From positions 1 through 32,416 of the forward strand of contig WJKR01000025.1 of assembly GCA_014729015.1 (NCBI GenBank): a stretch of DNA of 32,416 nt. Reading direction: 5' to 3'. The stretch's first letter is position 1. Each line of letters opens with the position of its first letter. Below are positions 1 to 15,553 of this stretch, piece by piece. This stretch comes from Candidatus Woesearchaeota archaeon (GTDB lineage Archaea; Nanobdellota; Nanobdellia; Woesearchaeales; WJKR01). The position numbers were made by a program, and so were the translations under genes. The notes below the pieces were generated by a model, which searched no databases, was not told where the DNA came from, and saw only the letters and a list, made by a program, of their open reading frames with translations.

Positions 1-440
1 CCTTAGGGGCGATCTACACGTTCATCCTCTTTGCTGTCATCCTCTACCTGTTCGGGCCGAAAGCATTCTCATTGCCGTTCGGTATATTCGTCATCCTCTC
101 CGCCATCGTAGCGTACCCCATCAAATGGTTGTTCCCGACGCCGCGACCGGACCACAAAGAGAAACCGTTGCCGAAGAAGATAACCCTTTGGAACTACTGG
201 CGCGTCATCGACCACGGCGCCTTCCCCAGCGCACACGCCATGAGGACCGCAGGACTAGCGACACTCTCATTATTTTTCTCATCGCGAACATTACACGTAA
301 TCTTACTAGCATTATTCTTCATTATCTGCTGGTCACGAATACACCACAGAAGGCATTACCCGAAGGATGTCATCGGCGGAGCGCTGATGGGAATAATCAT
401 CATGGTGCTCTCCTGGTACCTCGCGCAATGCATGCACTAA
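1..440 (+). CDS. PAP2-family membrane phosphatase, 5' end cut by the window
   Basis: This is the C-terminal part of a type 2 phosphatidic acid phosphatase (PAP2) family membrane enzyme. The frame is open from the first bases of the window, so the TTG start at 72 in the ORF track is not the real start. All three catalytic motifs are visible: KWLFPTPRP (K-x6-RP), FPSAHAMR (the PSGH-type motif) and SRIHHRRHYPKD (SR-x5-H-x3-D). Hydrophobic segments flank them, including one at the C terminus. Family members dephosphorylate lipid phosphates or polyprenyl pyrophosphates on the outer membrane face. Recycling of the glycan carrier lipid would suit the glycan genes downstream, but that is inference. 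The TAA stop is at 438-440. Confidence 0.9.
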   Translation, partial: LGAIYTFILFAVILYLFGPKAFSLPFGIFVILSAIVAYPIKWLFPTPRPDHKEKPLPKKITLWNYWRVIDHGAFPSAHAMRTAGLATLSLFFSSRTLHVILLALFFIICWSRIHHRRHYPKDVIGGALMGIIIMVLSWYLAQCMH

Positions 441-533
441 AGAAATATTTCCAAAAAAATTGAATTACCAACGAAATTCTTACCTCAAACCAATTAAAAA
501 ATCCTGTTTTCTCATCCACCCGGTGATACAACA

Positions 534-716
534 ATGGGATTAACCAACAAGAAAGAAGAACAACTCAAGAAGATGCCAAAGATAGAAACTAAACTGAGCA
601 AGAGTAATGATGGAAAGTTTGTCATACACCAAACCATTATTACGCATGTTCGACCAGTGACGTACTATCAAGCAGTGCTTGAGAACAATGAAGAAGTGGC
701 TGAGGAATCAGCCTAA
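534..716 (+). CDS. Small 60-aa protein of unknown function
   Basis: A short charged protein that I do not recognise. It has a lysine-rich N-terminal half (KKEEQLKKMPKIETKLSK), a central stretch likely to form beta strands (KFVIHQTIITHVRPVTYYQ) and an acidic tail. Support for it being real: an ATG start, a GGTGAT Shine-Dalgarno-like sequence at about 522-527 with good spacing, an A/T-rich TATA-like element (ATTAAAAAAT) near 494-504, and T-rich runs after the stop that look like an archaeal terminator. There are no cysteines, signal peptide or membrane segment. It stands between the PAP2 gene and the epimerase pseudogene, so context gives no function. Confidence 0.6.
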   Translation: MGLTNKKEEQLKKMPKIETKLSKSNDGKFVIHQTIITHVRPVTYYQAVLENNEEVAEESA

Positions 717-717
717 T

Positions 718-761
718 TCTTTATTTCTTTTGCATAATTCTTTTAAACTACTTTTTTTTCT
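718..761 (+). terminator. T-rich terminator region after the 60-aa gene
   Basis: After the stop at 716 the plus strand has T-rich runs (TTTATTTCTTTT at about 721-731 and an 8-T run near 752-759). Archaeal transcription typically stops at such runs without needing a hairpin. This supports independent transcription of the small gene. Confidence 0.45.
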
Positions 762-1271
762 CAATCCGAACGTCATAAGGCCAGAATTCTTCAGGCTTCA
801 ACGTCTGAAGTATACGGTGATCCTGAGGTACACCCTCAAAAGGAAGAGTATAGGGGGAGTGTTAACACTATTGGTCTTCGTGCGTGTTATGATGAGGGGA
901 AGCGTTGTGCAGAAACACTCATGTTTGACTATCACCGGAAGAATGGTGTGGACATAAGAGTTGTGAGAATTTTCAGCACGTATGGTCCTAGAATGGCTGC
1001 TGATGACGGGCGTGTTGTTTCTAATTTTATCATACAAGCTCTTGATGGTGATGATATCACTATCTTTGGTGATGGTTCCCAAACAAGGAGTTTTTGCTAT
1101 GTTGATGATTTGTTGAATGCTATGGTATCTTTCATGAACACGCTAAACTGCACAGGTCCTTTGAATATTGGCAATCCTACTGAATTCACTATTAAAGAGC
1201 TAGCACAAGAGGTTATTTCTTTGACAAGTTCTACCTCTAAATTAGTTTATTTCTTTGTACTAAAGATTTAA
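747..1271 (+). pseudogene. Fragment of a UDP-glucuronate decarboxylase (UDP-xylose synthase)-like epimerase
   Basis: From about 770 the frame encodes the middle and C-terminal part of an extended short-chain dehydrogenase/epimerase closest to UDP-xylose synthase: [18 protein letters not shown], a [10 protein letters not shown] segment with the catalytic Y-x3-K pattern, [19 protein letters not shown] and [14 protein letters not shown]. The N-terminal Rossmann fold with its GxxGxxG NAD-binding loop is absent: an in-frame stop lies at 744-746 and no start codon precedes the conserved block. The C terminus stops shortly after the KLVY segment, where about 40 more residues are expected. The ORF-track start at 921 is inside the conserved core. 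I read it as a decaying remnant truncated at both ends; the 3' break lies next to the 5S terminator. Confidence 0.8.
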
Positions 1272-1279
1272 AAAAAAGG
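1271..1279 (-). terminator. Poly-T terminator of the 5S rRNA gene
   Basis: On the minus strand the 3' end of 5S rRNA (CTGTCC) is followed by TCC and then a run of T residues (poly-A on the plus strand just before 1279). This is the usual form of an archaeal intrinsic stop and overlaps the end of the truncated epimerase reading frame on the other strand. Confidence 0.55.
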
Positions 1280-1394
1280 AGGACAGCTTTCCGGTTTTCC
1301 CACACATAAGTGCAGTACCAGCCGAAACGTGGGCATGCTTAACTATCCGTGTTCGAAATGGGAACGGGTGGAACCACGCCGCTTTGACCGTCCA
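1280..1394 (-). rRNA. rrf: 5S ribosomal RNA
   Basis: The minus strand carries the conserved 5S core: CCCGTTCCCATTTCGAACAC, then GGATAGTTAAGC and a GGTACTGC segment. The terminal helix I pairs GGACGG at the 5' end (1388-1393) with CTGTCC at the 3' end (1281-1286), which sets the ends to within a few bases; the size of about 115 nt fits. No 16S or 23S rRNA lies nearby, so it is an unlinked single-copy-style 5S gene, as in many archaea. It has its own TATA box and T-rich terminator. Exact ends are approximate. Confidence 0.93.
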
Positions 1395-1414
1395 CTGTTG
1401 GGAAACACGATTTC

Positions 1415-1424
1415 ATTTATAAAG
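1415..1424 (-). promoter_or_regulatory. TATA box of the 5S rRNA gene
   Basis: CTTTATAAAT on the minus strand is centred about 26 bp upstream of the inferred 5S 5' end at 1394, the standard archaeal TATA-to-start distance. The 5S gene is therefore transcribed alone and not from the heptose genes upstream. Confidence 0.7.
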
Positions 1425-1436
1425 TTAATGGTGAGT

Positions 1437-2420
1437 CTATTTTAATAGATTTGTGCTCGAGAAGCCTTCTATCCTTGGTATTAGGTATATTTTACCACCA
1501 TATTTCTTGACAGTTGTTGCTTCTATGCAGTTCTCTCCGTACTCAGCGCCGTTGGCATGTATATCTGGTTTTATATCTTCTACTATCTTCCTTGGGTCTG
1601 GCTCTGCAAAGCTGGTGATAAGATCGACTGCTGTGTACATGCTCAGCATACGTTGCCGTGCTTGTAGCGTGTTAACAGGTCTGTTTTTTCCTTTGTTCTT
1701 TCTGATGCTTTCATCCTCATTAAGTGCAACGATAAGCACATCCCCTTGTTTTTTTGCTTGTGAGAGAATGTAATCATGGCCTTCATGGAGGAGATCGAAG
1801 GCGCCGTTGAGCGTTACAATTTTTTTGCCTGCTGCTTTGAGCTCTGCTACTCGGTTTTTGATGGTTGTTCGTGATACTATTTTTTCTTCTTTAGCCTTAG
1901 CTACAAACGTCGCTGCTTGCAGGAGATCAGACGTGATGTACGCTGGACCTGCGGTTTTTACCTTTTGTAGTGTTACTTTTCCTTGTTCTGTGAGAAGGTG
2001 AATTGCTTTACATCCTATGTTGTTTGCTAGTTTTGTGTCCGATGGTTTGTCACCAATAATCCATGATTGTGTAAGGTCGATGTTATATTCTCTGGCAGCT
2101 TTTTGTGCGAGTGCAGTTTTTGGTTTTCTACATTTGCACACTTCTTCTGGTGAATGTGGGCAATGATATACTTTTTGTATGTTAACTTGTGATTGTTGTA
2201 GTGTATTAGTAAGGTGCTTATTGAACTGGTGCATTTGTTCTTCTGTGTAATATCCTCTTCCTATACCTGACTGGTTGGTAATAATGATTAATTCGAAGTT
2301 TTCTAGAATTTGCAGTCCTTCAATGACTTTGTGGTGAAGGGAGAACTCATCGACTTTGTAAGTGTAGCCACCATCTTTATTGAGTGTGCCATCTCTGTCA
2401 AGAAAGATTGCTGGATTCAT
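1437..2420 (-). CDS. gmhB-hldC: Fused heptose-1,7-bisphosphate phosphatase (GmhB) and heptose-1-phosphate nucleotidylyltransferase (HldC/RfaE2)
   Basis: A 327-aa two-domain enzyme. Residues 1 to about 165 are a HAD-IIIA phosphatase of the GmhB type: nucleophile motif DRDGTLN near the N terminus, the ITNQSGIGRG loop, a zinc-binding CPHSPEEVCKCRKP loop and the final acidic motif GDKPSDTKLA. Residues about 185-327 are a cytidylyltransferase-fold domain like the C-terminal half of HldE/RfaE: LNGAFDLLHEGH (HxGH site), a KGKNRPVN segment and a FSSTNLLK end. Together they would convert D-glycero-D-manno-heptose 1,7-bisphosphate to the 1-phosphate and then to NDP-heptose, probably ADP-heptose. The ATG overlaps the TGA of the epimerase gene by 4 bases, so the two are co-translated. 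In classical HldE the nucleotidylyltransferase is fused to the kinase instead. The gene is A/T-rich compared with the sulfate genes. Confidence 0.88.
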   Translation of the reverse strand: MNPAIFLDRDGTLNKDGGYTYKVDEFSLHHKVIEGLQILENFELIIITNQSGIGRGYYTEEQMHQFNKHLTNTLQQSQVNIQKVYHCPHSPEEVCKCRKPKTALAQKAAREYNIDLTQSWIIGDKPSDTKLANNIGCKAIHLLTEQGKVTLQKVKTAGPAYITSDLLQAATFVAKAKEEKIVSRTTIKNRVAELKAAGKKIVTLNGAFDLLHEGHDYILSQAKKQGDVLIVALNEDESIRKNKGKNRPVNTLQARQRMLSMYTAVDLITSFAEPDPRKIVEDIKPDIHANGAEYGENCIEATTVKKYGGKIYLIPRIEGFSSTNLLK

Positions 2421-3307
2421 TTTAGCTGTGGTAAATAATCTTTAATACCATCGATAAGCGAGTATTCTGCCTCAAACTTAAGGTGTTTTTTGGCTCGAGT
2501 AGTGTCTGCTTCTGTGTGGTGCTGGTATGTTTTCATATCGTAAGGGCTATCGATATATTCTGGTTGAAGATTTGTTCCAAGAGCTTTATTAATAGCAGCT
2601 ATTAGTTCGTTAAAACTTGTGCCGATACCTGTGCCTACGTTGTAGACTCCACTTTTTGCATCAAGTGCTTTTATGGTTGCTTTAACGACATCTTTGACAT
2701 AAATATGATCTCTTTTGTGTTCGCCGTGCTTGAACAATTTTGGTCTTTTACCTTGTCGCATCTGTTTTATGAGGTGGTATATCATCGATGCGGGTCTTCC
2801 TTTGTGTGTTTCTCCTGGTCCGAAGACATTGAAATACCGTAGACCAACGACCTGTAGGTCATCGTAGTGGTGGCTTGCCATCTCGTCTATGATGAGCTTT
2901 GATTCAGCGTATGCGGTGGTAATCTCTTTTGCTTGGTCTTCTTTTTGTGGTGCCGGACCGTTGCCGTATAAGCCTGCTGTTGACGCGTAGACAAGTTTTG
3001 CTTTTTTCTCTTTGGCAAGCTCCAGTATGTTTTGAAATCCTTTGACGTTGGCTTCGAGGAGTCTGGCATCCTCTTCGTAGCGTGGGTCTGTGATTGCTGC
3101 TATATGGAAGATTGCATCTATGTTTCCTTCAACAGTGAATGGTTTGCTGACGTCTTGCTCGATTGTTACCCCTTTGCATGTTTCGAGGTTGTCTTTGTGT
3201 CCGCTAGAGAAATCGTCGATAACAATGGTTTCGTGGTTTTGTCGTTCAAGTTCTTTCACAAGGTTGCTGCCGATAAACCCTGCTCCACCCGTAATGACGC
3301 ATTTCAT
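2417..3307 (-). CDS. hldD: NAD-dependent epimerase, ADP-glycero-manno-heptose 6-epimerase (HldD)-like
   Basis: An extended short-chain dehydrogenase/reductase of 296 aa. It has the Rossmann motif GGAGFIGSN at the N terminus, an STAGLYG serine/threonine segment and the catalytic YAESK (Y-x3-K). The substrate-side segment RYFNVFGPGETHKGRPAS followed by PKLF and a KRD-x-YVKDV motif resembles HldD rather than GalE. HldD inverts C6 of ADP-D-glycero-D-manno-heptose. I start at the ATG at 3307 (MKCVITGG), not the longer track ORF, because it begins exactly at beta strand 1, does not overlap the upstream gene, and has a TATA element about 24 bp upstream, implying a leaderless start. It is directly coupled to gmhB-hldC. 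A UDP-hexose 4-epimerase role is the main alternative. Confidence 0.78.
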   Translation of the reverse strand: MKCVITGGAGFIGSNLVKELERQNHETIVIDDFSSGHKDNLETCKGVTIEQDVSKPFTVEGNIDAIFHIAAITDPRYEEDARLLEANVKGFQNILELAKEKKAKLVYASTAGLYGNGPAPQKEDQAKEITTAYAESKLIIDEMASHHYDDLQVVGLRYFNVFGPGETHKGRPASMIYHLIKQMRQGKRPKLFKHGEHKRDHIYVKDVVKATIKALDAKSGVYNVGTGIGTSFNELIAAINKALGTNLQPEYIDSPYDMKTYQHHTEADTTRAKKHLKFEAEYSLIDGIKDYLPQLK

Positions 3308-3326
3308 GTTATTATTAATGGTGCTT

Positions 3327-3336
3327 TTTTTATATG
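3327..3336 (-). promoter_or_regulatory. TATA box of hldD
   Basis: CATATAAAAA on the minus strand is centred about 24 bp upstream of the hldD ATG at 3307, predicting a leaderless mRNA. It overlaps the stop region of the upstream gene, so hldD-gmhB-hldC may be transcribed separately as well as by read-through. Confidence 0.55.
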
Positions 3337-3338
3337 CA

Positions 3339-4016
3339 TTATGCATCGAGGTTCTGTTCGAAGGTTTGTGCTTTGACAAGATCCCTGCCTTTTCGACGCT
3401 TAAATTGGACGAGTCCTTGTAACTCTAGCTCATCCATATATCTATAGAATGATGCTTTTGAGCAGTATTTTTTCTGATCAACAACTACATCTCGTAAACT
3501 GATCTTTGTGAGATCTCCTTTGGCTACTTCGCTAAGAATTTGTTGTTTGATGATGTCTTTACGATTCCGCTCATAATTTTTGAGCAGGTCTTCTTTGAGT
3601 TTATCTGCAACTAGTTTCTGACTTTTTATGATTGGTTCTGGTTGTTGTATATTTTGTTCTTCTCTAACAGGTATTTCTTCAATTTTTTGCTCAGTCTCAG
3701 GCTGAGACTGGGTTGAGAAAACGCTTGATTCTTTTGTATTTAACTCTTTCAAGGCTTTTCCGACACCTTCGGCAACTGCTTCTTTGAGAATGAGTCTCAG
3801 CGTCTCAGGGTTGAGAATGGGTTGAGACTCGGATGATTTTCGCTCTTCTTCGAAAGAACGTCGGACATTTTCTTCTTTTTGCAACTGCTCCCTTACCCTC
3901 TGCAATTCTTCCTCGAACAAAGAAAACTTCGCGTTGAGCTCTGAGATGTCCTTTTTCACTTCCTGGAAGCTCTTTCTGATTCGCTTCCGATCGTTCCCCA
4001 ACAAATCCAATCTCAT
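3339..4016 (-). CDS. Coiled-coil and winged-helix-like protein, possible DNA-binding regulator
   Basis: A 225-aa soluble protein, not assignable to a named family by eye. Residues about 10-65 are heptad-like and charged (SELNAKFSLFEEELQRVREQ), a probable coiled coil. Residues about 110-140 are a Q/E/P-rich linker. The last 75 residues look like a winged helix: a basic helix (NYERNRKDIIKQQIL), then ISLRDVVVDQKKYCSKASFY with a recognition-helix pattern (SKASFYRYMDELELQGLVQF) and a basic wing (KRRKGRDLVKA). The ATG at 4016 lies about 27 bp after an ATTAAATAC TATA element. Its coding region and its promoter hold most of an array of TGAGA/TCTCA pentamers, which could be its own binding sites. It precedes hldD by 31 bp. 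Regulation of the heptose or sulfate genes is a guess. Confidence 0.65.
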   Translation of the reverse strand: MRLDLLGNDRKRIRKSFQEVKKDISELNAKFSLFEEELQRVREQLQKEENVRRSFEEERKSSESQPILNPETLRLILKEAVAEGVGKALKELNTKESSVFSTQSQPETEQKIEEIPVREEQNIQQPEPIIKSQKLVADKLKEDLLKNYERNRKDIIKQQILSEVAKGDLTKISLRDVVVDQKKYCSKASFYRYMDELELQGLVQFKRRKGRDLVKAQTFEQNLDA

Positions 4017-4150
4017 GCACGAAGAGGAATAATCCTCGGTATTTAATCCTTTCTCACGCTGAGACTGGTCTCAAAAAAACACGTTTGTTTATAAATGAAA
4101 TTCTCAATTAAGACTTTTCCATGTGCAAAAAGGCTGAGACTGAGCTGAGA
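3695..4150. repeat. Array of TGAGA/TCTCA pentamers with three exact GCTGAGACTG copies
   Basis: Sixteen TGAGA or TCTCA pentamers occur in about 455 bp, against roughly one expected by chance. They fall at 3695, 3703, 3714; 3785, 3795, 3803, 3812, 3823; 3942; 4011; 4052, 4060, 4069; 4102; 4135 and 4146. Within clusters the spacing is 8-11 bp, close to one DNA turn. The 10-mer GCTGAGACTG is exactly repeated at 3701, 4058 and 4133. Two clusters lie inside the winged-helix gene and the rest between it and cysQ. Confidence 0.75.
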
Positions 4151-4203
4151 ATGTCTTTTTTTCCCTCATCACAAGCAACTCTCTTTCAGAACGCTTATAA
4201 ATG
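4039..4203. promoter_or_regulatory. Divergent promoter region between the winged-helix gene and cysQ
   Basis: Minus-strand TATA element ATTAAATAC (4039-4047) lies about 27 bp from the start at 4016. Plus-strand TATA element CTTATAAATG (4194-4203) lies about 26 bp from the cysQ ATG at 4224. A third TATA-like box, GTTTATAAATG, is at about 4087-4097 on the plus strand. TGAGA/TCTCA pentamers sit just upstream of both main TATA boxes (4052-4073 and 4135-4150), a position suited to an activator or a shared repressor. Confidence 0.6.
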
Positions 4204-4223: not shown

Positions 4224-5021
4224 ATGGAATTAGGGAAAGAAGCATCAATCGCACAAGAACTCGCACTCCAGGCAGCGGCTATCATCATGGGCTTTTACCA
4301 ACAAGATATGTCCGTAGCTGAGAAGGAAGATAAGAGCCCTATTACCGAAGCGGACCTTGCGGCGAACAAGCACATACTCAAAGGACTCAAGGAATTATTC
4401 CCAGATGATGCCATCCTCTCAGAAGAAGCGGCTGACGACAAGGCAAGGCTCGACAAGAGCCGGGTGTGGACAGTCGATCCTCTGGATGGCACCAAGGAGT
4501 TCATCAAGCGGAACGGCGAGTTCACCGTCAACATAGCCCTAGCTATCGATGGTGTGCCGGTCGTCGGGGTGGTGTGCTTACCGGCGAAGGACGAGTTCTA
4601 CGCGACTGATGGGGAGGATGTGTTCGTCATCAAGGATAGTGAACGCTTGCCCATCAAAGTCTCCGACAAGGATGACTTTCGGGAGATGACGCTGATGAAG
4701 AGCCGCTCGCACGCCTCAGAAGCACTCATAGCCATCGCCAAGAGGGCAGGCTTCAAGGATGAGAAACCTGCTGGCAGCGCCCTCAAAGGGTGCCTCGTCG
4801 CCTCAGGAGACGCGGACGTCTATATCAGGATGGGGAACACGCATGAATGGGATATCTGCGCGTTGGACGCAGTCATCAGGGCTGCAGGGGGCGTCGTGAC
4901 CGACCTGGAAGGCAATCCTTTAAAATACAACAAGGATGACACCCTCGTCAGGGGGTTCGTGGCTTCTAATGGTAAGAAGCACGAAGCATTGGTGGGGTTA
5001 ATACAAGATGGACAGGCTTGA
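4224..5021 (+). CDS. cysQ: 3'(2'),5'-bisphosphate nucleotidase CysQ
   Basis: A 265-aa member of the inositol monophosphatase superfamily, matching CysQ in length. Metal-binding motifs are present: [18 protein letters not shown], and the signature DPLDGTKEF, followed near the C terminus by [16 protein letters not shown]. CysQ hydrolyses adenosine 3',5'-bisphosphate (PAP), the product left when sulfotransferases use PAPS, and so relieves product inhibition. It is the first gene of the sulfate-activation operon and overlaps cysD by 14 bases. The TATA box at 4194-4203 predicts a leaderless start at this ATG. General inositol-phosphatase activity cannot be excluded from sequence, but the context strongly favours PAP hydrolysis. 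Confidence 0.88.
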
Positions 5022-5886
5022 AGCATTGGAGGCGCAAAGCGTCTACATATTGAGGGAGGCGTATGCCAAGTTCAAGAGCCTCGTCATGCTCTGGAGCATC
5101 GGGAAAGACAGTACGGTCATGCTCTGGATGGCGAGGAAGGCTTTCGGTGGCCACGTGCCTTTTCCTTTGGTGCATATCGATACGGGCTACAAGATACCAG
5201 AAATGATCAAGTATCGTGACAAGCTCGCCATAGAACTCGGCCTGAACATGGTCATCGGCCAGAACAAGCAAGCACTCAGAGAAAAAAACACCTTCCCCGA
5301 CGGCAAGCTCAACAGGATAGAGTGCTGCAAAGCACTCAAAACAACAGCGCTCAGAAACACGCTCTCAGGGGAATGGCCTCGGTACCGATTGGATCACCAC
5401 AAAAAGAAATACGTGCTCGACGAGGACAAAGAGCCGTACACAGGTGTCATCGTTGGCGTACGAGCAGACGAGGAAGGCACCAGAAGCAAAGAACGCTACT
5501 TCTCACCAAGAGACAAGAACAACGACTGGGACGTCGCAGACCAACCCCCAGAACTCTGGAACCAATTCAAGACCGACTTCGCGCCGAACACCCACCTCAG
5601 GATACACCCCTTACTCGATTGGACTGAGCTGGACATCTGGCTGTACATCCAGAAAGAGAATATACCTGTCACTTCACTGTACCTCGCAAAGAATGGGAAA
5701 CGCTATCGATCACTAGGCTGCTATCCCTGCACCAAACCAGTCGACTCAAACGCAGATACTATCGCAAAGATCGTTGAAGAACTCAGAAGTGGAAAGTTCT
5801 CTAACATCGCTGAACGATCAGGAAGAGATCAAGACAAAGAAGACGGTGGAGGACTCGAGACCTTACGCTTGGATGGATACATGTAA
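5008..5886 (+). CDS. cysD: Sulfate adenylyltransferase subunit 2 (CysD)
   Basis: A 292-aa N-type ATP pyrophosphatase (PP-loop) protein, about the length of bacterial CysD. The PP-loop motif [10 protein letters not shown] is near residue 30, followed by [16 protein letters not shown], then [34 protein letters not shown] and LGCYPCTKP, and an ERSGRDQD segment near the end. With the GTPase CysN it makes APS from sulfate and ATP. There is no iron-sulfur ligand set of a PAPS reductase, and no sulfite-producing gene follows, so the operon looks built for sulfation rather than sulfur assimilation. The start overlaps the end of cysQ. Codon use changes to mostly A/C-ending codons from about 5270 on. 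Confidence 0.93.
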
Positions 5887-5887
5887 A

Positions 5888-6106
5888 ATGAGAAAAGAGA
5901 CGCACGCAAGAACACTCATAAAAAGTATTACCTGGAGGATTATCGCGACGATGGCTACCATCATTATCGTGTATCTTCTCACAGATAACTTTGGTATAGC
6001 AACAGCAGCAGGACTCGTCGAAGTAGTCACGAAACTCATCATCTACTACTTGCATGAAAGGGCATGGATACATGTCCCTTGGGGCATAAAGAAAAATGCG
6101 CGCTGA
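5888..6106 (+). CDS. DUF2061-like small membrane protein
   Basis: A 72-aa protein with two predicted membrane segments: [19 protein letters not shown], and a second around [20 protein letters not shown], ending in a [11 protein letters not shown] segment typical of DUF2061 proteins. The start is the ATG at 5888, one base after the cysD stop; the longer track ORF (5774) runs through cysD in another frame. It overlaps the following cysN by 11 bases, so it is embedded in the operon. My recollection is that DUF2061 genes are often found near sulfate-activation genes; a role in sulfate supply or as an enzyme anchor is speculation. Confidence 0.8.
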
Positions 6107-7883
6107 AAAAGAACAGATGAACATCGTACTCGTAGGTCATGTCGACCACGGTAAAAGCACAGTCGTCGGTAGATTGCTCGCTGACACCGACTCATTACCA
6201 AAAGGAAAACTCCAACAAGTCAAAGACTACTGCAAGAACAACGCAAAAACATTCGAATACGCGTTCCTCCTAGACGCATTGAAAGCCGAACAATCACAAG
6301 GCGTCACCATTGACAGCGCGAGATGCTTCTTCAAGTCAAAAAAACGGGAATACATCATCATCGACGCCCCAGGACACATAGAATTCCTCAAGAACATGAT
6401 CTCAGGAGCGGCACGAGCAGAAGCAGCAATTTTAGTCATCGACGCACAAGAAGGCATACAAGAAAACAGCAAGCGGCACGCGTACATGCTCTCCCTCCTC
6501 GGCATCAGGCAGGTGTTGGTGGCCGTGAACAAGATGGACCTCGTTGACTACTCGCAGGAGCGGTTCGACAAGGTCAAACAGGATTTCACCGGGTTCCTCG
6601 AGGGCATCGGCATCAAGCCTAGGGATTTCATCCCGGTGTCTGCTCGTGAGGGTGACAACGTCGCCTCCAATTCCAAGAATCTCTCATGGTTCAAGGGCGA
6701 CACCGTCCTGGAGGCGATAGACCATTTCGAGAAAGAGCCGTTGCCTGAGGACAAGGAGTTCCGCATGCCCATCCAGGGGGTGTACAAGTTCACCAACCTC
6801 GGCGACGACCGCCGCATCATCGGGGGGCGCGTCGAGACCGGCACGCTCAAGGCAGGGGACAAAGTGGTGTTCCTGCCTTCCTACAAGACCTCCACGGTCC
6901 AGTCCATAGAGGAGTTCAACGTCTCCGGCAAGAAATCCATCTCAGCCGGCGAGTCGACAGGTTTCACCTTGACTGAGCAGGTCTTCGCCACCCGCGGCGA
7001 TATCGCCTGCAAGGCCTCCGAACCACCTCCCTATGTCGGCCGGCTGTTCAAGGCGAGCATCTTCTGGATGGGCAAGAAGCCCCTGGAGCTGGACAAGGAG
7101 TACAAGCTCAAGCTCACCACCTCCGAGGCTAAGGTGCGCGTCACCGAGATTACGGGTGTCTTGAATTCGTCATCGTTGGAGAGCGCGAAGGCCCCCGAGG
7201 TCAAGCGCCACGAGGTGGCCGACTGCGTCATCGAATCCAAGGTTCCCTTGGCGTTCGACACGTTCAAGGCGATGAAATCTACTGGCCGGTTCGTCCTCGT
7301 GGACGAGTACGAGATCCGCGGCGGCGGCATCATCACCGAGCCCTTGGAGGACGAGGAGTCAGCCACGCGCGAGCAGATTTCGCTTCGCGAGCAGAAGTGG
7401 GACCCTGGCAGCATCGGCTTCAGGGAGCGCTCGTTGAAGTACGGCCAGTTCCCGACGCTCATGCTCATCACCGGGCCTTCCGGGGTGGACAAGAAATCCA
7501 TCGCGAAGCAACTCGAGAGAACGTTGTTCGACCAGGGACGCTCGCCCTACTTCCTCGGCATCGGTAATTTGTTGCGTGGCCTGGATGCGGATATCGACAA
7601 GGAAAGACGACAGGAGCATATCAGGCGTCTCGGCGAAGTCTCTCACTTGCTGTTGGATGCCGGCTTGATCGTCGTGGCGACCGCTAGTGATTTGACTGAG
7701 CCCGAGATAAGGTTGCTGCGGACCATCATCAACCAGGATTTCATCATCACCGCCAACGTCGGAGACTTCACCAATGGTAATGGTGTTATTGACGTCTTCC
7801 TCGACGAGAACGACGGCGTCGAGGCGAACGCGAACAAACTCTTGGGCAAGTTGTCGTCGAACAACAACATCTTCAGCAGGTAG
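6096..7883 (+). CDS. cysN: Sulfate adenylyltransferase subunit 1 (CysN) with a degenerate APS-kinase-like C-terminal domain
   Basis: A 595-aa protein. Residues 1 to about 430 are an EF-Tu-like GTPase: G1 loop [10 protein letters not shown]3 DAPGH, G4 NKMD, then the beta-barrel domains ([14 protein letters not shown]). It drives APS synthesis by CysD through GTP hydrolysis. Residues about 445-595 resemble the APS kinase domain of NodQ/CysNC fusions, but the P-loop reads GPSGVDKKS instead of G-x4-GK-S/T and the DGDNxR motif is replaced by GIGNLLRGL, so kinase activity is probably lost. A complete CysC follows 6 bp later and would supply it. The start could instead be the ATG at 6117, just before the G1 loop. 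Glutamate codons switch from all GAA to mostly GAG near 6490. Confidence 0.92.
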
Positions 7884-7889
7884 GGAATC

Positions 7890-8462
7890 ATGGCTGACAA
7901 CATCACCTGGCACCACGGCAAGGTCACGCGGGAAGACCGCGTCAAACTCTTTGGGAAGAAGAACAAGGTGTTCTGGTTCACCGGACTGTCAGGATCGGGG
8001 AAGTCCACCATCGCGGTCGAGTTCGAGAAGCGGCTGCACGAACAGGGACATCCTACATTTATTCTTGATGGGGATAACGTCCGCCACGGCCTGAACAAGA
8101 ACCTCGGCTTCTCTCCCGAGGACCGTGAGGAGAACATCCGACGGGTGGCCGAGGTGGTCAAGCTGTTCTACGACGCTGGTGTGACTGTGTTGGTATGCTT
8201 CATCAGCCCTTATAGGAATGATCGTGAGTACGCGCGGTCATTGATAGGCGATGATTTCGTGGAAGTGTACGTCAAGTGTTCCTTGGAGACGTGCGAGGAG
8301 CGCGATCCTAAGGGCTTGTACAAAAAGGTCCGGAAGGGTGAGATAAGAGGATTCACAGGGGTAGACGCGCCGTATGAGGAGCCGACTTGCCCTGAGGTCA
8401 CAATCGTGAGTGATATTGTTGGTGTGGATGAATCTGTCTCTGCATGTATGGATTTGTTGTGA
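7890..8462 (+). CDS. cysC: Adenylylsulfate (APS) kinase CysC
   Basis: A 190-aa complete APS kinase, which phosphorylates APS at the 3' position to PAPS, the sulfate donor for sulfotransferases. It has an intact Walker A motif (GLSGSGKST), the DGDNVRHGL substrate motif, NLGFSPEDREENIRR, the FISPYRNDRE segment, and the lid and C-terminal KVRKGEIRGFTGVDAPYE region. It is the last gene of the operon. The short gap after cysN suggests co-translation. It ends convergently with the frameshifted sulfotransferase gene. Confidence 0.96.
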   Translation: MADNITWHHGKVTREDRVKLFGKKNKVFWFTGLSGSGKSTIAVEFEKRLHEQGHPTFILDGDNVRHGLNKNLGFSPEDREENIRRVAEVVKLFYDAGVTVLVCFISPYRNDREYARSLIGDDFVEVYVKCSLETCEERDPKGLYKKVRKGEIRGFTGVDAPYEEPTCPEVTIVSDIVGVDESVSACMDLL

Positions 8463-8494
8463 AGAAGTGTATCATGGGTTTTTGGCGATTCATG

Positions 8495-9590
8495 TTAATA
8501 GTACTTGTATTTTTTGAGGTTCTTGTTGAGTGAACGGGCAGTCTTGATATTTTCTTTCCTGTAGAGTTCGGTGATTTTTCTCCTGGTTTTCTTGTCCATT
8601 CTATATTTGCCTGATATTTTCCTCAGCATGAGTTTGTCGTCGAGGAATAGCAGGGTCTTGGTGCATAGTCTTCTCAATTGTTGGTCGAAGAAGTTTTTAT
8701 ATCGGTAGTATTCGGCCTTTTTGAAGTCCCGGTTGCTATTGTTTCCGATGAGTTTTTTTTTGTAACTGGGATGAGATATTGAACTTCTCGAGGATTTGTC
8801 GGAACCATAATAGTAACATGGCGGAAAGCGATGTTAGCCATGATAGGGGGCTCAAGGGGGATTCGTTTAACTTGCTTGTTAGGAATGTGTTGAGGAATCT
8901 ATGGATGGAAATTGTTATCTTTGACAATCCTTGTTTTTGTTTTTTCTTATCAGGTGTGGGGGGTTCTGAAATCCCCAAAAATTTGCATAGTTGTTTCAGA
9001 ACCTTTGCAGGTTCGCTTTTAAACTCTTCGAATACATAGACGAAAACATTTTCTTTCCCGAATACGTGTTGGTAGTGGGTTATGAATGTGTGGTAGAAGA
9101 GCTTGCTCCTCAAGGCAACGCTCCTCTTGTTTGGTGAGAACAATAGTTTTGTTGAGGGAAGTCTTCCTCCTCTTTTGATATACTGGTTGTAGTAAGATTC
9201 GAGCATGGATGTTTGGTTTCTTATCCCGATTATGATTCGTGTGTCAAAGTCCTTGAAGCTTTCTTTCAATCGCTCTGCTACATAGAGGGAAGAAGGCATC
9301 AGTCCGCCGTTTCCGAAAGATAATCCTTCATAGCTCACCCCATATATCTTCTTCTCAGTGGGATGTTTCCTTATTATGTTTCTTACTGTATCTCTTGATT
9401 TCTTCGGGGAGAACGTGATATCTGGCTCGTTCTGGAGGTTCATCTGTAGTCTTGTCAGTTGCTGGACGTGCTTCCTTGAGCTTTTTCCCAGGAACTCTAT
9501 ATCCTGATGTGTTGAGAAGAACTCATTCTGGAGCCATGTCGTGGCGGTCTTTGGAAATCCTATATTGATGAATATCTTTTTCTTTTTCAT
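8495..9590 (-). pseudogene. Sulfotransferase gene interrupted by a frameshift in an A9 run
   Basis: The intact N-terminal reading frame (8736-9590) has a PAPS 5'-phosphosulfate-binding loop (GFPKTATTWLQ) at residue 11 and a 3'-phosphate-binding segment (IRNQTSMLESYYNQYIK) near residue 125, so it is a sulfotransferase. It ends soon after SSQLQKK. Removing one A from the A9 run (8753-8761) joins it to a second frame that reads LIGNNSNRDFKKAEYYRY and includes the 60-aa track ORF 8495-8677. Its end (ISGKYRMDKKTRRKITELYR) resembles the C terminus of the sulfotransferase at 14684 (KPYRIPEAWRKELLELFS). The whole gene would encode about 365 aa. The start overlaps the upstream sulfotransferase stop by 4 bases. 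It may be an assembly error, a real break, or a slippage-controlled gene. Confidence 0.8.
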
Positions 9591-10567
9591 TTTTCATGGG
9601 ATTCGCTTCTAGAAGATTGGGATTTGGGATTCGGAGTTGTTATCTTATCGTAATTCCATTGCGTTACCAGATCCCTATCCAGTAGTTCGCTGAGTCTCTT
9701 CACCTCCGGCTTGAATTTCTTCATAAGTCTTTCTTTCAGGGATGGCTTTATTTTCTGGTGTTTGACAGGGATTTTAATGAACTTGTATAATTTCCGTTTG
9801 ATGGCCTTGTATGCTTTCTGGGGCAGTACTGCTTTCCAGAATTTCCATACGAGAGGGTGTTCTGCTATGTTCTTGAGAGGCCTGTATTGTATTTTGTGCC
9901 TGTAATTTATTTTTTTGAAGGCGGGCGTGAACGTGTTGTCGACCCCTATGAATTTGGTGACTTCCGAAAACGTTTTTCTGTTGTCTCGGTTGAACTCATC
10001 GAAGAGTATGACTTTCACCTGGGAGCGTCCGAAAGTGCGAAAATACCGTTGTATGGATGTTGAGAATGTCGCGAGTTCGGTGTAGAAAAGTTGTGCGGGG
10101 AATGCTATTTTGGGCGGTAGTTGTTCTCCTTTTTTCCATGATTTCTCTTTTTCGAGTGATCTTTCAAAACTCTCTGTTTCAACCTTTCCGCCTTTGAATT
10201 GGTGGTATAGGGAGTGTATGTAATCAACGGGTTCTCTAATCATAATGATAATCTTGGCATTCGGGTTGAAATTATGGATGTTCTGTGCTGCTTCTTTCGA
10301 GTGGAGGTAGGCAGTGGTCCCTTCTCCTGCAACTTTCTCATCCTTCCAATCCCTGAATAGTGAGAGATATTTGCTCTGGGTGCGGTATGGGAAATGCTTT
10401 TTCTTACTATGGAACCTGTCGCTTTCCCTGATTCTGTCTGTGCAGAAAAAACCGATTTCTTTGGGTTCTGCCATGAAGATGTCCGGATGCTGCTTGAGGA
10501 ATTCGTACATCGCTGTGGACCCGCTCTTGGGAGCTCCCACGAGGAAGACACTGGGTTTTCTTCTCAT
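9587..10567 (-). CDS. PAPS-dependent sulfotransferase
   Basis: A 326-aa cytosolic sulfotransferase-fold protein. The 5'-phosphosulfate loop GAPKSGSTAMYEFL is at residue 11, and the 3'-phosphate motif IREPVDYIHSLYHQF at about 135. Conserved features shared with the next gene include PKEIGFFC, KKKHFPYR, a DEKVAGE segment and HPLVWKFWKAVLP. The acceptor is unknown; the glycan context suggests a carbohydrate hydroxyl. The ATG at 10567 lies about 28 bp from a CTTTTAAGG TATA element. It overlaps the frameshifted sulfotransferase gene by ATGA, so the two form an operon. It is a diverged inverted paralogue of the N-terminal part of the gene at 10741, and more A/T-rich than that gene. Confidence 0.9.
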   Translation of the reverse strand: MRRKPSVFLVGAPKSGSTAMYEFLKQHPDIFMAEPKEIGFFCTDRIRESDRFHSKKKHFPYRTQSKYLSLFRDWKDEKVAGEGTTAYLHSKEAAQNIHNFNPNAKIIIMIREPVDYIHSLYHQFKGGKVETESFERSLEKEKSWKKGEQLPPKIAFPAQLFYTELATFSTSIQRYFRTFGRSQVKVILFDEFNRDNRKTFSEVTKFIGVDNTFTPAFKKINYRHKIQYRPLKNIAEHPLVWKFWKAVLPQKAYKAIKRKLYKFIKIPVKHQKIKPSLKERLMKKFKPEVKRLSELLDRDLVTQWNYDKITTPNPKSQSSRSESHEK

Positions 10568-10589
10568 CTGGTTTTATTGATGGGAGGGT

Positions 10590-10719
10590 CCTTAAAAGGT
10601 TTTCTGAGGGGGTATTATGCGATTTGGCCCTGTTCCGCTTCGTAGTGTCTCTTAATCCCTTTGTCAGGGGTGGCTGTGAGGGCTTGTGGTGGCTGTCTAA
10701 GGCATAATGTTTTTAAATG
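10590..10719. promoter_or_regulatory. Divergent promoter region between two sulfotransferase genes
   Basis: Minus-strand TATA element ACCTTTTAAGG (10590-10600) is about 28 bp from the start at 10567. Plus-strand TATA element TTTTTAAATG (near 10710-10719) is about 26 bp from the ATG at 10741. Both predict leaderless mRNAs. Confidence 0.55.
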
Positions 10720-10740
10720 ATATATGTTTTTTAGAACGTT

Positions 10741-12480
10741 ATGAGGAAACCTTCTCTATTTATTGTTGGGGCCCCCAAATGTGGAACCACGACGTTGTAT
10801 GATTTGCTTTCCCAACATCCTGACGTTTTTATGACTGTCCCTAAGGAGCCTATGCATTTTTGTAAGGACTTTATTAGGGAGAGCGATTGGTTTTGGGGGA
10901 AGAAGAAGTATTTCCCTTATAGGGATAGGTCCCGTTATTGGGAGCTTTTTAGCGAGTGGTCTGATGAGAAGGTTGCGGGAGAGGCCTCGACCGTTTATCT
11001 GTACTCGAAGGTGGCTGCCAAGCGGATACGTCACTTCAACCCTGAGGCGAGGATAATCATCATGTTGCGGGAGCCTGTCTCCTTCATCGAGTCGCTCTAC
11101 CTCCATAACAGGCGTGAAGCGGGGGAGGTCCGTTCCTTAAGGGAGGCGCTTGATTTGGAACCGAAGCGGAAATGGAACCATAGATTGGCCCCCTCACGCA
11201 TTCGGTTCCCCTCCTATAGCTTCTACAGAGAGTTCGCCAACTTTCCTGAACAGGTAAGGAGGTTCACCGCAGTCTTTCCTCGGGAGCAGATACTGTTCAT
11301 CACGCTGGACGAGCTGAAGAGCAGCCCCGAGAATGTCTTGGAGAGGGTGTGCCGTTTCGTGGGGGTGTCTCCTTCCAGGACCTCCGCTTCACCGGCCTCT
11401 TCAAACACTCGTAGGCTCCCGAAATCGCAGGCGTTGAGAAAGGTGTTGGAGAGTCCCCTTGTATGGCAGCTGCCCAAGATGGTACTGCCGAGGAAGTGGT
11501 ACGACAAGCTGAAGGACGTCTACCGGGGAGCAGCCTACACTCTGCCTTCGAGGTCTGTTATGGAGTCTGATCTCGTGGAATCGTTGAGGAAGGAGTTCAA
11601 GCCCGTCGTGCGGGAGCTCAGCAAGATCACAGCCAAGGATTTGGAAGGGTTATGGTCTTACAGGGAGAGGAAGCTCAGCTCCTCAAAGGAAGACCCCCTG
11701 CCGGTGTGCTTGGGTGGCACGCTCGGCGACACCTTCATCGTGTTCTGCAAGATCACCAAATACTGGCAGAAGCACGGCGGCCACTACACCTTGAGACGCT
11801 TCAATGACCACAAAGGATTCGACAAGCCCTTGAAGGAATTCTTCAAAGGGGTGTCCTACATCGATTATCTCCCCAGCAAGAGCCATGCGATGCTTTCCAA
11901 GGAGATTTACAAGCACGTGTATCTTAATGCGGACGTCGAGGGGGGTAGGGGGACCAGGACCCGGATAAAGGATTCCGTCGATTTCGGTATGGAGCCTTTT
12001 CCGGATGTTCCTTTCAAACCGAAGCGCCCCAGGGGGAAGCATGTGGGCGTACAGCTCCATGCGGGGAAATCGCTCAACAACTACAAGGGGTTCCGTTTCA
12101 GCCATGTCTTGCGGTTCATGTCAGAGCATCCCGGCGCCACCTTCCACCTCTTCGGGACCGGCTACGGCTACAGCGAGCGGAGCGTAAGACGTTTCTGCAG
12201 GAAGCATGGCATACGGAATCATGTGGGCCGGACCAGTTTCTCGGAATGGCTGCGGTACCTCAAGTCCATGGATTTCCTCTACACGCCCGAAGGGTTCAGC
12301 GCGTTCTTCTCGCTCTCGCAGAAGGTTCCTTGCAGGGTGTACTACATTGATCCTCTCAGCACCAAGCGCATACATCCCGCCTGGAAGTCCCATGCCGACC
12401 TTGTACGTGCGAAATCCGTAATTCTATGGCCTTGGTTGTTCTTGGGGAGGGTGCGGCAGCGGCTTAAGATTCCGCGATGA
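10741..12480 (+). CDS. Sulfotransferase fused to a GT9/heptosyltransferase-like domain
   Basis: A 579-aa two-domain protein. Residues 1 to about 315 are a sulfotransferase: 5'-phosphosulfate loop GAPKCGTTTLYDLL, 3'-phosphate motif LREPVSFIESLYLHN, and clear paralogy to the gene at 9587. Residues about 320-579 look like a GT-B glycosyltransferase of the GT9 (ADP-heptose:LPS heptosyltransferase) type: GGTLGDTFIVFCKI at the domain start, GVQLHAGKSLNNYKGFRF (compare the GT9 HPG motif), FHLFGTG and VGRTSFSEWLRYLKSMDFLYTPEG. The usual DTG-x-x-H motif is replaced by TPEGFSAFF, so the acceptor or activity may differ. The fusion would couple sugar transfer to sulfation. The 3' end overlaps the convergent GT4 gene by 17 bp. 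Confidence 0.78.
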   Translation: MRKPSLFIVGAPKCGTTTLYDLLSQHPDVFMTVPKEPMHFCKDFIRESDWFWGKKKYFPYRDRSRYWELFSEWSDEKVAGEASTVYLYSKVAAKRIRHFNPEARIIIMLREPVSFIESLYLHNRREAGEVRSLREALDLEPKRKWNHRLAPSRIRFPSYSFYREFANFPEQVRRFTAVFPREQILFITLDELKSSPENVLERVCRFVGVSPSRTSASPASSNTRRLPKSQALRKVLESPLVWQLPKMVLPRKWYDKLKDVYRGAAYTLPSRSVMESDLVESLRKEFKPVVRELSKITAKDLEGLWSYRERKLSSSKEDPLPVCLGGTLGDTFIVFCKITKYWQKHGGHYTLRRFNDHKGFDKPLKEFFKGVSYIDYLPSKSHAMLSKEIYKHVYLNADVEGGRGTRTRIKDSVDFGMEPFPDVPFKPKRPRGKHVGVQLHAGKSLNNYKGFRFSHVLRFMSEHPGATFHLFGTGYGYSERSVRRFCRKHGIRNHVGRTSFSEWLRYLKSMDFLYTPEGFSAFFSLSQKVPCRVYYIDPLSTKRIHPAWKSHADLVRAKSVILWPWLFLGRVRQRLKIPR

Positions 12481-13591
12481 TACGGGTGAGTCGTTTCTCG
12501 AGCTCTTTCTTAGGTGCTTCGGAGTCGAACTTTTTGGCGTGGGTCCTGGCTTTTTTTGAGTAATTTTTGTATTCTTTCTCTATTTGCAGGATGGCCTTTT
12601 TCCAGTCCTTCACTGTGGCTGAGGGCTTCATTAGTATACCGCCCCCGTCCACTGATTCTGCGTGCCCTCCCAGGTCGGTGGCGATGGCGGGGATGCCTGA
12701 CAGCATCGCCTCGACCGGCACGCGGCCGAAGGCTTCCGGGTGCTCCCTGGCTGAGATGAATATCCTCGTCTGGCGGTAGATATCCCTCGGGTCGTCGACG
12801 TATGTCCGCTGGACCTTCAGGTTGGGGATGTCGACCTCGTCCTTATGCCCGACCGAGAGGAACTTGTGGTCGGGCATGCTCCGGGCAAGGGCTTCCATCA
12901 TCCGGTGTCCCGACTTCTTCCCCAAGCCTATCGCCGTGATGTAGGATCCTGTGCTTTTCACCCTGTACTTGTGGGCGCGTATCCTGTAATACGACACTAT
13001 TGCGTCGACCCCGATTATCTTTTGTATCATGCGTCTCGTGTATTCGCTGTTCGCGACCACGAGGTCTGCTTCACGGAAGCTCTCTGGGATGGTACAGCCG
13101 TAGACGAACGTGTCCATCAGCCACGCGTACCCTACTCTGAGCGGTATTTTGAGCGTGTTCTTCTTCCCTCTGAACTGGCTGTTCTTCAGGGAGGGCAGCA
13201 GCCGTTCGAACTTCCTGAACAGCCGCCAGTATCCTCCTATCAGCGTCTCGAAGCGGTGGACGAAGAATACGTAGGGAATGCCAAGTTCACGTTTCAGGTT
13301 GAGCGCTATCTTCGATTCGAAGCTCCAGGTGAGGAGACACTCCGGCCTGTGTTTTTTCGCGAAGCTGGTGGCGAGTGCGAGCTTCCTCTTGTTGCTTGTG
13401 GCTTTGAGGGTGTAGTAGTGGACGCCGTTCAGCGTTCGCTTCTGGTTTTGCCAGGAGAATTGCAACACTTCTATCTCATGTCCTTGTGCAGTGAGGTATT
13501 CCGAGAGTTCCCTCATGCTTATCTCGCCCCCTCCTGGCATGGAGTGCTTTGTGGGAATCATGGGGTTGTGCGCGAGTATCATCAGTTTCAT
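12464..13591 (-). CDS. Family 4 (GT-B) glycosyltransferase
   Basis: A 375-aa retaining GT-B glycosyltransferase. The N-terminal half has MKLMILAHNPMIP, a PGGGEISMRELSEYL segment typical of GT4 acceptor domains, and DLVVANSEYTRRM. The donor half has AIGLGKKSGHRMMEALA, and FISAREHPEAFGRVPVEAMLSGIPAIATDLGG, the E-x7-E signature of GT4 enzymes. Sugar donor and acceptor are unknown. It follows the CgeB-like gene with an ATGA overlap, so the two are co-translated, and it converges on the sulfotransferase-GT9 fusion. No membrane segments are evident; it probably acts on the cytosolic lipid-linked glycan. Confidence 0.9.
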   Translation of the reverse strand: MKLMILAHNPMIPTKHSMPGGGEISMRELSEYLTAQGHEIEVLQFSWQNQKRTLNGVHYYTLKATSNKRKLALATSFAKKHRPECLLTWSFESKIALNLKRELGIPYVFFVHRFETLIGGYWRLFRKFERLLPSLKNSQFRGKKNTLKIPLRVGYAWLMDTFVYGCTIPESFREADLVVANSEYTRRMIQKIIGVDAIVSYYRIRAHKYRVKSTGSYITAIGLGKKSGHRMMEALARSMPDHKFLSVGHKDEVDIPNLKVQRTYVDDPRDIYRQTRIFISAREHPEAFGRVPVEAMLSGIPAIATDLGGHAESVDGGGILMKPSATVKDWKKAILQIEKEYKNYSKKARTHAKKFDSEAPKKELEKRLTRIIAES

Positions 13592-14604
13592 GTTTTCTTC
13601 CTCTTATTGTGGTCTTCCACGAATGACAGCAGCCTCTCAATCTGGTTCTTCCAGGTGTAGTCTTCGAGAACTTTCTTTCTGCCTGCTTTGGCTATCGTTT
13701 CTCGTTCCTTGTGGTGCTTGAGGTAGTGCCTGATTGCGTTGAGACATTCCTCTTTAGTGGCGAACCATTCAAGGTGTTTCCCTTTCACGAAGAATTTCTC
13801 GAGATCCTTGTTGTGCGTCGCTAGGAGGAACGAGCCTGTCGCCATGGCGTCGAATACCCTGGCTGAGAAGCCTGCTCCTGGCCTGTTGATGTTGAGTATG
13901 ATCCTCGATTCCTGGTACAGTTTCGTGAGCGCTTGGTTGTAGCGGGGGCCGTTCCTGGTGTTAGGGCCGTACACCTCCACCTTAATGCCGTTCCTCTTGA
14001 GGTATGAGAGGAGCCTCCTCCGCGGCCTGTCTATCATGCCGACGAAGATGACGTCATGTTTCTTCTTCCTCCGCTTCAAGTGCTTGTAGTCCTGCAGCGA
14101 GGCTCCTTGGATGAGGTGCAGTTTCCTCGTGTTCCCGAAGAACGGCAGCACGTCGGACCAGGTGGTGCTTGCGTAGTCGCACCTCTTCGCGTACTCGTCG
14201 GCCTCGACAATCCTGGCGGTCTTCAGGTAGTCCATGAAATAGTAGAACAGCGGGCCGTGCCGCCGTAGTTTTGGGAGGAACTTGTAGTGGAGGTCTTCCG
14301 CTTTTGAGATCAGGATGAGGTCGTAGGTCTCGCCCTTGATCTTGCTGAAGAGCTCTTTCGCCATGCCTTGCCTGGCGGGATCCCTGTAGAACAGCCGCCT
14401 GACAGGTTTGGGGAAGAAGGGGAGCTTCAGGGCCCAGAAGAGCCTCCATGCGAACCATTTGAAGGGCCCCCTGCGCTTGTTCGTGTTCGCGCGGTAGTCG
14501 AATGTGGTGACATCGATGCCCTTCCGTCGCAACTCTTCCAACTGGGGTATGTTCTTCGAGTGAGTGGGTGAGAACACTCCTATGAAGAGTACGCGCTTCA
14601 ACAT
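13588..14604 (-). CDS. CgeB-like glycosyltransferase (GT-B fold)
   Basis: A 338-aa protein resembling the CgeB/glycosyl-transferase group 1 family: N-terminal RVLFIGVFSPTHSKNIPQ, middle KHDVIFVGMIDRPRRRLLSYL, and C-terminal ILNINRPGAGFSARVFDAMATGSFLLATHN, where a conserved arginine and acidic residue contact the nucleotide sugar, ending with a VLEDYTWKNQIERLL segment. The start at 14604 is about 25 bp from a TTTTTTAAAC TATA element. It is the first gene of a two-gene operon with the GT4 enzyme. Donor and acceptor are not predictable. Confidence 0.85.
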   Translation of the reverse strand: MLKRVLFIGVFSPTHSKNIPQLEELRRKGIDVTTFDYRANTNKRRGPFKWFAWRLFWALKLPFFPKPVRRLFYRDPARQGMAKELFSKIKGETYDLILISKAEDLHYKFLPKLRRHGPLFYYFMDYLKTARIVEADEYAKRCDYASTTWSDVLPFFGNTRKLHLIQGASLQDYKHLKRRKKKHDVIFVGMIDRPRRRLLSYLKRNGIKVEVYGPNTRNGPRYNQALTKLYQESRIILNINRPGAGFSARVFDAMATGSFLLATHNKDLEKFFVKGKHLEWFATKEECLNAIRHYLKHHKERETIAKAGRKKVLEDYTWKNQIERLLSFVEDHNKRKKT

Positions 14605-14624
14605 GCGGGTGAAATTGCCTCGCC

Positions 14625-14659
14625 GTTTAAAAAAATTGTGAAAGCAAAAGGTTTATAAC
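14625..14659. promoter_or_regulatory. Divergent TATA boxes for the CgeB-like and sulfotransferase genes
   Basis: TTTTTTAAAC on the minus strand (14625-14634) is about 25 bp from the start at 14604. GTTTATAAC on the plus strand (14651-14659) is about 29 bp from the ATG at 14684. The two divergent starts are separated by only 79 bp. Confidence 0.5.
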
Positions 14660-14683
14660 ACTGCTGGAGCTTTTGGGGAGCGT

Positions 14684-15553
14684 ATGCGGACGCTCATCTG
14701 GCACGTCGGCCTCCACAAGACGGCTTCAACCTTCCTGCAGCACGAGGTCTTCCCCAAACTCGGTGGTGTCAAGCAACTCACCAGTCATGGCAAGTATGGT
14801 ACTGTTGACCTGATGAACAAGAATCTTTCCCAGCGTGATGTCAAGCGGATACGGGGAGAGTTGAAGAAGAGGGCGACGGCAGGCACGAACCTGCTTTCCT
14901 GTGAGGGTCTGGCTGGGTCCGCGTATCCTCGCCGCCCAGTCAAGGATAGGGTCCAGATACTGGATGATATAAAGAAGGTCTCCCAGGGCTTCAAGCCAAA
15001 GGTCATACTCGTGCTCCGCCGGCAGGACAAGCTGATTGAGTCCGTGTATCGTGACTATGTCCGTGGGGGGGCAGTTGATGACTTCGACACCTTCATGGGA
15101 CGGCTCTTCAGGAGGTGGGGTGGCCGGGGAGGCTTTGTCCAATGGTTCAGCTTCTCTGCTTACGTACGGGAATTGCACAAGATGTTCGAGAAGCAGAACG
15201 TCCTAGTGCTTACGCAGGAGGGGCTCAAAGCCTCCCCCACCCATTTCATGGAGTCGCTCTGCAGGTTCATCGGGACTGATGTGCCCGCTTATCACAATAA
15301 GCCGAGGAACAGGAGTTATGGGGCGGTGCAGATGAGGTTAGCGAGGAAGCTCAATATCCTCTTCAAGACGAGGTGTAATCCCCGTGGCCTTATACCATTG
15401 AGGATTGTCCCGGCGATTCTGGGGAGGGAGGTCTTCTTCAGGCTGTTCCCAAAACCCTACAGGATTCCTGAGGCGTGGCGGAAGGAGCTCCTGGAGCTAT
15501 TCTCAGAGGACAACCGGATTCTGAAAGAGAAGTATGGTATCGGATTCTCATAG
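14684..15553 (+). CDS. PAPS-dependent sulfotransferase
   Basis: A 289-aa sulfotransferase. The 5'-phosphosulfate loop is HVGLHKTASTFLQHEVFP at residue 7, and the 3'-phosphate-binding segment is LVLRRQDKLIESVYRDYVRGG near residue 110. The C-terminal KPYRIPEAWRKELLELFSED block is typical of this family and helped identify the broken C terminus of the gene at 8495-9590, with which it forms a second paralogous pair. The acceptor is unknown. The TATA box at 14651-14659 gives a nearly leaderless start. Its stop lies 5 bp from the convergent flippase gene. Confidence 0.9.
   Translation: MRTLIWHVGLHKTASTFLQHEVFPKLGGVKQLTSHGKYGTVDLMNKNLSQRDVKRIRGELKKRATAGTNLLSCEGLAGSAYPRRPVKDRVQILDDIKKVSQGFKPKVILVLRRQDKLIESVYRDYVRGGAVDDFDTFMGRLFRRWGGRGGFVQWFSFSAYVRELHKMFEKQNVLVLTQEGLKASPTHFMESLCRFIGTDVPAYHNKPRNRSYGAVQMRLARKLNILFKTRCNPRGLIPLRIVPAILGREVFFRLFPKPYRIPEAWRKELLELFSEDNRILKEKYGIGFS

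Follow-up and report, generated by a model that had tools for sequence, protein, structure and literature searches.

WhiP is the winged-helix initiator protein of Sulfolobus oriC3, an origin without an ORB or mini-ORB (PMC4010727). RepE, pi and TrfA are winged-helix Rep proteins of iteron plasmids (PMC4980987). The common archaeal ORB consensus is TCCA..GAAA....GGGGT (PMC4164010). An open-access literature search for Woesearchaeota together with "replication origin" returned G-quadruplex work only. To our knowledge, the start and control of replication and the segregation of DNA in DPANN archaea are almost unknown. The locus described here offers a defined protein and a DNA code that is likewise defined and comes in several natural, swappable specificities. 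The ORB links it to the replication initiator, and the question could be tested in vitro without cultures.

The window (the whole 32,416-nucleotide stretch analyzed, contig WJKR01000025.1 of a Candidatus Woesearchaeota archaeon) contains a dense array of the pentamer TGAGA/TCTCA around a winged-helix (wHTH) gene. All 16 copies that the first-pass annotation had reported in about 455 bp were recounted at 3695-4150, with the same spacing of 8-11 bp within clusters, and the three exact GCTGAGACTG 10-mers were found at 3701, 4058, and 4133. Ten of the 16 pentamers lie inside the coding sequence (3339-4016, minus strand), where clusters had been noted, and the remaining six are upstream. The suggested enrichment test against shuffled sequence was run: the densest 456-bp cluster has 16 pentamers, whereas dinucleotide-shuffled versions of the 32-kb window (300) gave 8 at most and shuffled versions of the local 1 kb (3000) gave 9 at most. 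Across the window as a whole the pentamer shows no enrichment (90 copies against an expectation of 90.5), so the finding lies in the clustering, and no other 5-mer is as densely clustered. A search of the 838.6-kb assembly matched TGAGACTGNNNTGAGA exactly at this site only, and elsewhere TGAGA pairs 2-10 bp apart occur as isolated pairs. A regulon reading was dropped because the assembly has no second array. The array is confirmed as real, and its features are as follows.

3339..4016, minus strand: wHTH gene, encoding a 225-aa winged-helix protein with a predicted coiled coil and class A recognition helix YCSKASFYRYMDE (ORF, homologs, AlphaFold model).
3695..3718, no strand assigned: in-gene iteron block of TCTCA at 3695 and TGAGA at 3703 and 3714 (motif positions, conservation); it codes for part of a low-confidence linker (FSTQSQPETE).
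3785..3827, no strand assigned: in-gene iteron block of TGAGA at 3785, TCTCA at 3795 and 3803, and TGAGA at 3812 and 3823 (motif positions); it codes for SESQPILNPETLRLIL, and four of its sites are homologous in position to sites in a same-genus relative.
3942..3946, plus strand: lone TGAGA in the coding sequence, absent from the same-genus relative (motif position, comparison).
4011..4015, minus strand: lone TCTCA overlapping the start of the wHTH gene, absent from the same-genus relative (motif position, comparison).
4038..4045, minus strand: probable TATA box of the wHTH gene, read from the sequence and kept in the same-genus relative.
4052..4073, no strand assigned: promoter iteron block TCTCAcgcTGAGACTGGTCTCA (motif positions, comparison with the relative).
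4088..4095, no strand assigned: TTTATAAA, a second possible TATA box, also present in the same-genus relative (comparison).
4102..4106, minus strand: lone TCTCA, kept in the same-genus relative (motif position, comparison).
4116..4137, plus strand: decayed ORB-like element TTTCCATGTGCAAAAAGGCTGA (motif score, comparison with the same-genus relative).
4135..4150, plus strand: promoter iteron block TGAGACTGAGCTGAGA, an 11-bp direct repeat (motif positions, comparison).
4196..4203, plus strand: probable TATA box of the divergent gene, read from the sequence.
4224-5021: divergent gene of the inositol-phosphatase family, PAP-phosphatase-like (Pfam); a neighbor, not a conserved part of the locus.

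The wHTH gene's TATA box lies 22-29 bp ahead of its ATG, which suggests a leaderless transcript. Co-control of heptose and PAPS genes by the array, one of the functions first proposed, was rejected because the neighbors are not conserved among genomes, the same-genus relative included. The region 4224-15553 holds PAPS-synthesis genes, for the PAP-phosphatase-like protein, a PAPS-reductase-domain protein, a GTPase with a partial APS-kinase domain, and an APS kinase. Within it they are followed by ORFs resembling sulfotransferases, and a sulfation locus in a DPANN archaeon is possible. In the same-genus relative, a segment directly after the wHTH gene (L007, about 2098-2215) resembles a 5S rRNA gene.

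A Pfam search with the 225-aa window protein returned no family, comparisons of the protein with Pfam, NCBIfam, and PDB sequences gave no match of note, and there were no matches in plasmid and phage records. Homologs occur in 128 of the 288 genomes of the order, and the named records are from Woesearchaeota/Nanoarchaeota; the complete chromosome of GW2011_AR15, an archaeon, is among them. The AlphaFold model of the window protein (mean pLDDT 84.9) has a helix at residues 4-62, an unstructured linker at about 99-130, and a wHTH domain at 131-216; this fold is of the DNA-binding type, in agreement with the earlier call of a probable DNA-binding protein. The homolog at locus L055 (pLDDT 90.9) is modeled with a long N-terminal helix and a C-terminal winged helix, and the long helix looks like a coiled coil. 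Pfam FUR matched 13 of 25 family members weakly (best E 1.1e-5), and the top fold matches are to Fur, but with TM-scores of just 0.3-0.4 or so. The wHTH proteins weakly resemble Fur-family regulators in their winged-helix DNA-binding domain; unlike them, they have a predicted coiled coil in place of the metal-binding dimerisation domain, which is absent from the AlphaFold models.

The array is kept in relatives, with at least four GTCTCA at 36 of 39 class A loci (non-redundant loci whose recognition helix is CS[KR]A[TS]FYRY). Class A iterons are mostly 11 bp apart on a single strand, and same-strand spacings peak at 11 bp (73 pairs), 22 (42), 32-33 (50), and 43 (15). Up to 19 sites occur per locus, and some loci, such as L055, L063, and L066, have them split into two blocks with three to five repeats each. 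The same-genus relative, whose wHTH protein is 51% identical to that of the window, has 25 TGAGA in 3.56 kb (8.3 expected) in its promoter and gene, and six in-gene sites are positionally homologous between the two. Of 371 genomes across the phylum, 29 contain the GTCTCANNNNNGTCTCA pair; these all belong to the same order, and the pair is mostly at the wHTH gene.

Proteins with other recognition helices have different arrays, and protein and repeat therefore co-vary. Class A loci have GTCTCA arrays in 33 of 39 cases. Class B (CS[KR]S[ST]FYR[ILA]L) has GTCCCA/TTCCCA at 26 of 41 loci and a GGACTA type at nine of 41, class C (CGRTxFYD) has GTCCGGAC at four of five, and class D (CGRTxFY[AS]) has a GGTTCG type at seven of seven. 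None of the four class E loci (FYNY; CSKATFYNY; L012, L018, L035, L176) has a clear array. Helix classes and motifs were set after inspecting the data and related sequences are non-independent, so no p-value is given for the co-variation. The pattern is nevertheless the one to be expected if the recognition helix read the repeat directly. Class B paralogs with GTCCCA/TTCCCA arrays include those at L120 (G011, 436.5-438 kb), L022, L024, L025, and L150, among others. The class B arrays examined, such as that in G011, have no ORB, and no class B protein was found in the viral contigs searched. At L015, L030, L212, L218, L222, and L120, a second motif, AGTGAG, is repeated 5-9 times at a distance of several hundred bp from the class B gene. 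Genome G066 holds one class A and one class B locus, 475 kb apart.

An ORB is present at 31 of the 39 class A loci (T[TC]TCCA[CTG][AT]GGAAA[TC][AG]A[AG]GGGGTGTCTCA), and these elements fit the published archaeal consensus (PMC4164010). Most arrays contain just one. Among 92 strict ORBs in 35 genomes (leaving out the window's own genus and G011), 43 are within 1.5 kb of a wHTH-family gene, 29 have cdc6 within 15 kb, and the other 20 are elsewhere, some of these on short contigs whose neighborhood is not visible. Further wHTH paralogs at G132:C17 24.0 kb and G091:C21 1.3 kb each have their own ORB nearby. An intact ORB in the window was considered and dropped, as a scan gave decayed matches only and nothing stands out. 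The element TTTCCATGTGCAAAAAGGCTGA is weak alone (-3.1 bits, rank 33 of 64,790 positions), and it occupies the position equivalent to TTTCCACACGAAAAAGGCTGAG in the same-genus relative. In G001, of the same genus, the highest-scoring ORB-like site in 20.5 kb falls in the array (12.1 bits, below intact ORBs). The ORB is thus decayed in the window's own genus, and any Orc1 link there is therefore doubtful.

One class A gene is carried by a small contig catalogued as viral in IMG/VR (L067; IMGVR_UViG_3300032020_000585, 1-3638). It has an exact 127-bp terminal repeat and is therefore probably a 3,511-bp circle. Besides the class A gene, the contig has ORFs for a resolvase, a NikA-like mobilisation protein, and a primase-like protein that shares 24-25% identity with parts of plasmid proteins of this kind. 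No ORB is present, and Pfam found no NTPase gene among its ORFs. It is probably a woesearchaeal plasmid, and this one circular 3.5-kb contig may replicate autonomously.

GC skew was analyzed because it had been proposed as a check for an origin, and it gave no support for one at the array. Raw skew switches sign at the array of AR15, but no consistent flip occurred within 10 kb of the array at 21 loci, and gene-strand correction left no switch at the array in AR15 or G066. Skew in AR15 is weak, and the corrected analysis gives no clear switch there. A main chromosomal origin at the array was rejected, despite the raw skew in AR15. In G066 the corrected switch coincides with the cdc6/ORB site (497 kb), and in G011 the best corrected candidates, at 774-859 kb, are near cdc6; the main origin is therefore probably at the cdc6 locus. 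The gene-strand-corrected GC3 switch at the cdc6/ORB locus of G066 (C1, about 497 kb) is strong and makes this site a good main-origin candidate. The gene cdc6/orc1 is not adjacent to the array, being 402 kb away in AR15 and on a separate contig in the window genome. Possible roles of the array are those of a centromere, a secondary origin, or a site of initiation control.

The array is very probably the cognate binding site of the product of its own gene. We infer that the wHTH protein would dimerise via its N-terminal coiled coil, that its recognition helix would read TGAGAC, and that sites 11 bp apart, roughly one helical turn, would be filled along one face of the DNA. A single large nucleoprotein complex would then form at one genomic place and would serve replicon maintenance, as a replicator or in initiation control, tied to Orc1/Cdc6 by the neighboring ORB in most relatives. 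Where the array spans the promoter, the protein would also repress its own gene. Of the functions first suggested, an iteron-like replication or partition element fits best, given the 11-bp phased repeats, the ORB in most relatives, and the one plasmid copy. Recurrence across the order, the usual ORB, and the plasmid copy make this probably a DNA-maintenance locus and not a simple on/off switch, and on balance replicon maintenance, and not autoregulation alone, is the probable role. The reading that we prefer is an iteron-type replicator or initiation-control locus that is linked to Orc1/Cdc6 in most relatives and is also self-repressing, with a probability of roughly 0.45.

An autoregulatory operator had also been proposed, and for loci with the array over the promoter self-repression is likely. 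As the only role, with the protein cooperatively repressing its own promoter and the ORB letting Orc1/Cdc6 couple the gene to the cell cycle, it is unlikely. It would explain why most class A arrays lie within 250 bp upstream of the gene and why iterons flank the probable TATA box in the window, and the weakly Fur- and PadR-like wHTH domain and the co-variation of helix and motif agree with it. However, array and ORB are 3' of the wHTH gene at L043, L044, L053, L058, and L064, so a promoter position is not required and an operator is not supported as the general role. In the three of these loci with DUF192 (L043, L044, L058), the order array-wHTH-DUF192 is constant while the wHTH gene alone is inverted. 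In addition, all 11 iterons near the plasmid gene are within its coding sequence, and up to 19 sites are many for an operator. A centromere is quite unlikely. In this reading a protein similar to ParR, TubR, or AspA would bind the array as a parC/tubC-like site, and a motor whose gene lies elsewhere would segregate the chromosome or plasmid. One dense site per genome, direct repeats of 11-bp period in two blocks at some loci, a coiled-coil type of wHTH protein, and the copy on a small plasmid would all suit it, and TubR is itself a wHTH centromere binder. Against it, the recurrent neighbors of the wHTH gene include no replication, Par-type, or NTPase gene, the plasmid also has no NTPase gene by Pfam, and the ORB would need a separate explanation. 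It is highly improbable that the array is a by-product of protein repeats, in which SQP/ETE-type linkers chance to encode TCTCA/TGAGA. The in-gene blocks do encode low-confidence linker, but the sites are intergenic in most relatives with exact 11-bp phasing, and other helix classes have different repeats. The in-gene codons are also kept beyond amino-acid needs: 10 of the 11 iteron-overlapping codons match exactly between the window and the same-genus relative, compared with 38 of the 84 other codons (Fisher p=0.004). The array is also a case of putative DNA-binding sites kept within the coding sequence of their own binder.

Compared with described systems, the iteron-type replicator that we favor shares features with several. 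In the case of UBP and the ucm element, Sulfolobus origins likewise have a second sequence-specific protein where an ORB lies. However, UBP binds DNA by beta-hairpins at hundreds of genomic sites (PMC12141716), whereas here a wHTH protein has a single site, and this parallel was set aside. ParMRC, TubZRC, and AspA of pNOB8 (PMC9178275) also pair phased direct repeats with a small DNA-binding protein, which is wHTH in TubR, but here no ParM, TubZ, or ParA gene was found adjacent and most loci have an ORB. The archaeal oriC beside cdc6 has the same ORB consensus (PMC4164010); the array differs in lying away from cdc6, usually with one ORB, and in not being picked out as the main origin by skew. 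WhiP and oriC3, compared by description, are similar in that a winged-helix gene lies beside its presumed site in archaea that also have cdc6-linked origins, but oriC3 has no ORB. Iterons of iteron plasmids are 17-22 bp, while the array here has an 11-bp period and a 6-bp core. RepE-type Rep proteins have two WH domains, whereas the wHTH protein has one plus the predicted coiled coil and no such Pfam match, and the woesearchaeal array is mainly chromosomal. A second, plasmid-related woesearchaeal replicator, with a new coiled-coil wHTH family whose members each have a matching iteron code and act with Orc1/Cdc6 at one ORB remote from the cdc6 origin, can be proposed only tentatively and is itself doubtful. 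The likeness to iteron plasmids consists of a winged-helix protein, helix-phased direct repeats near or in its gene, and a copy on a small plasmid.
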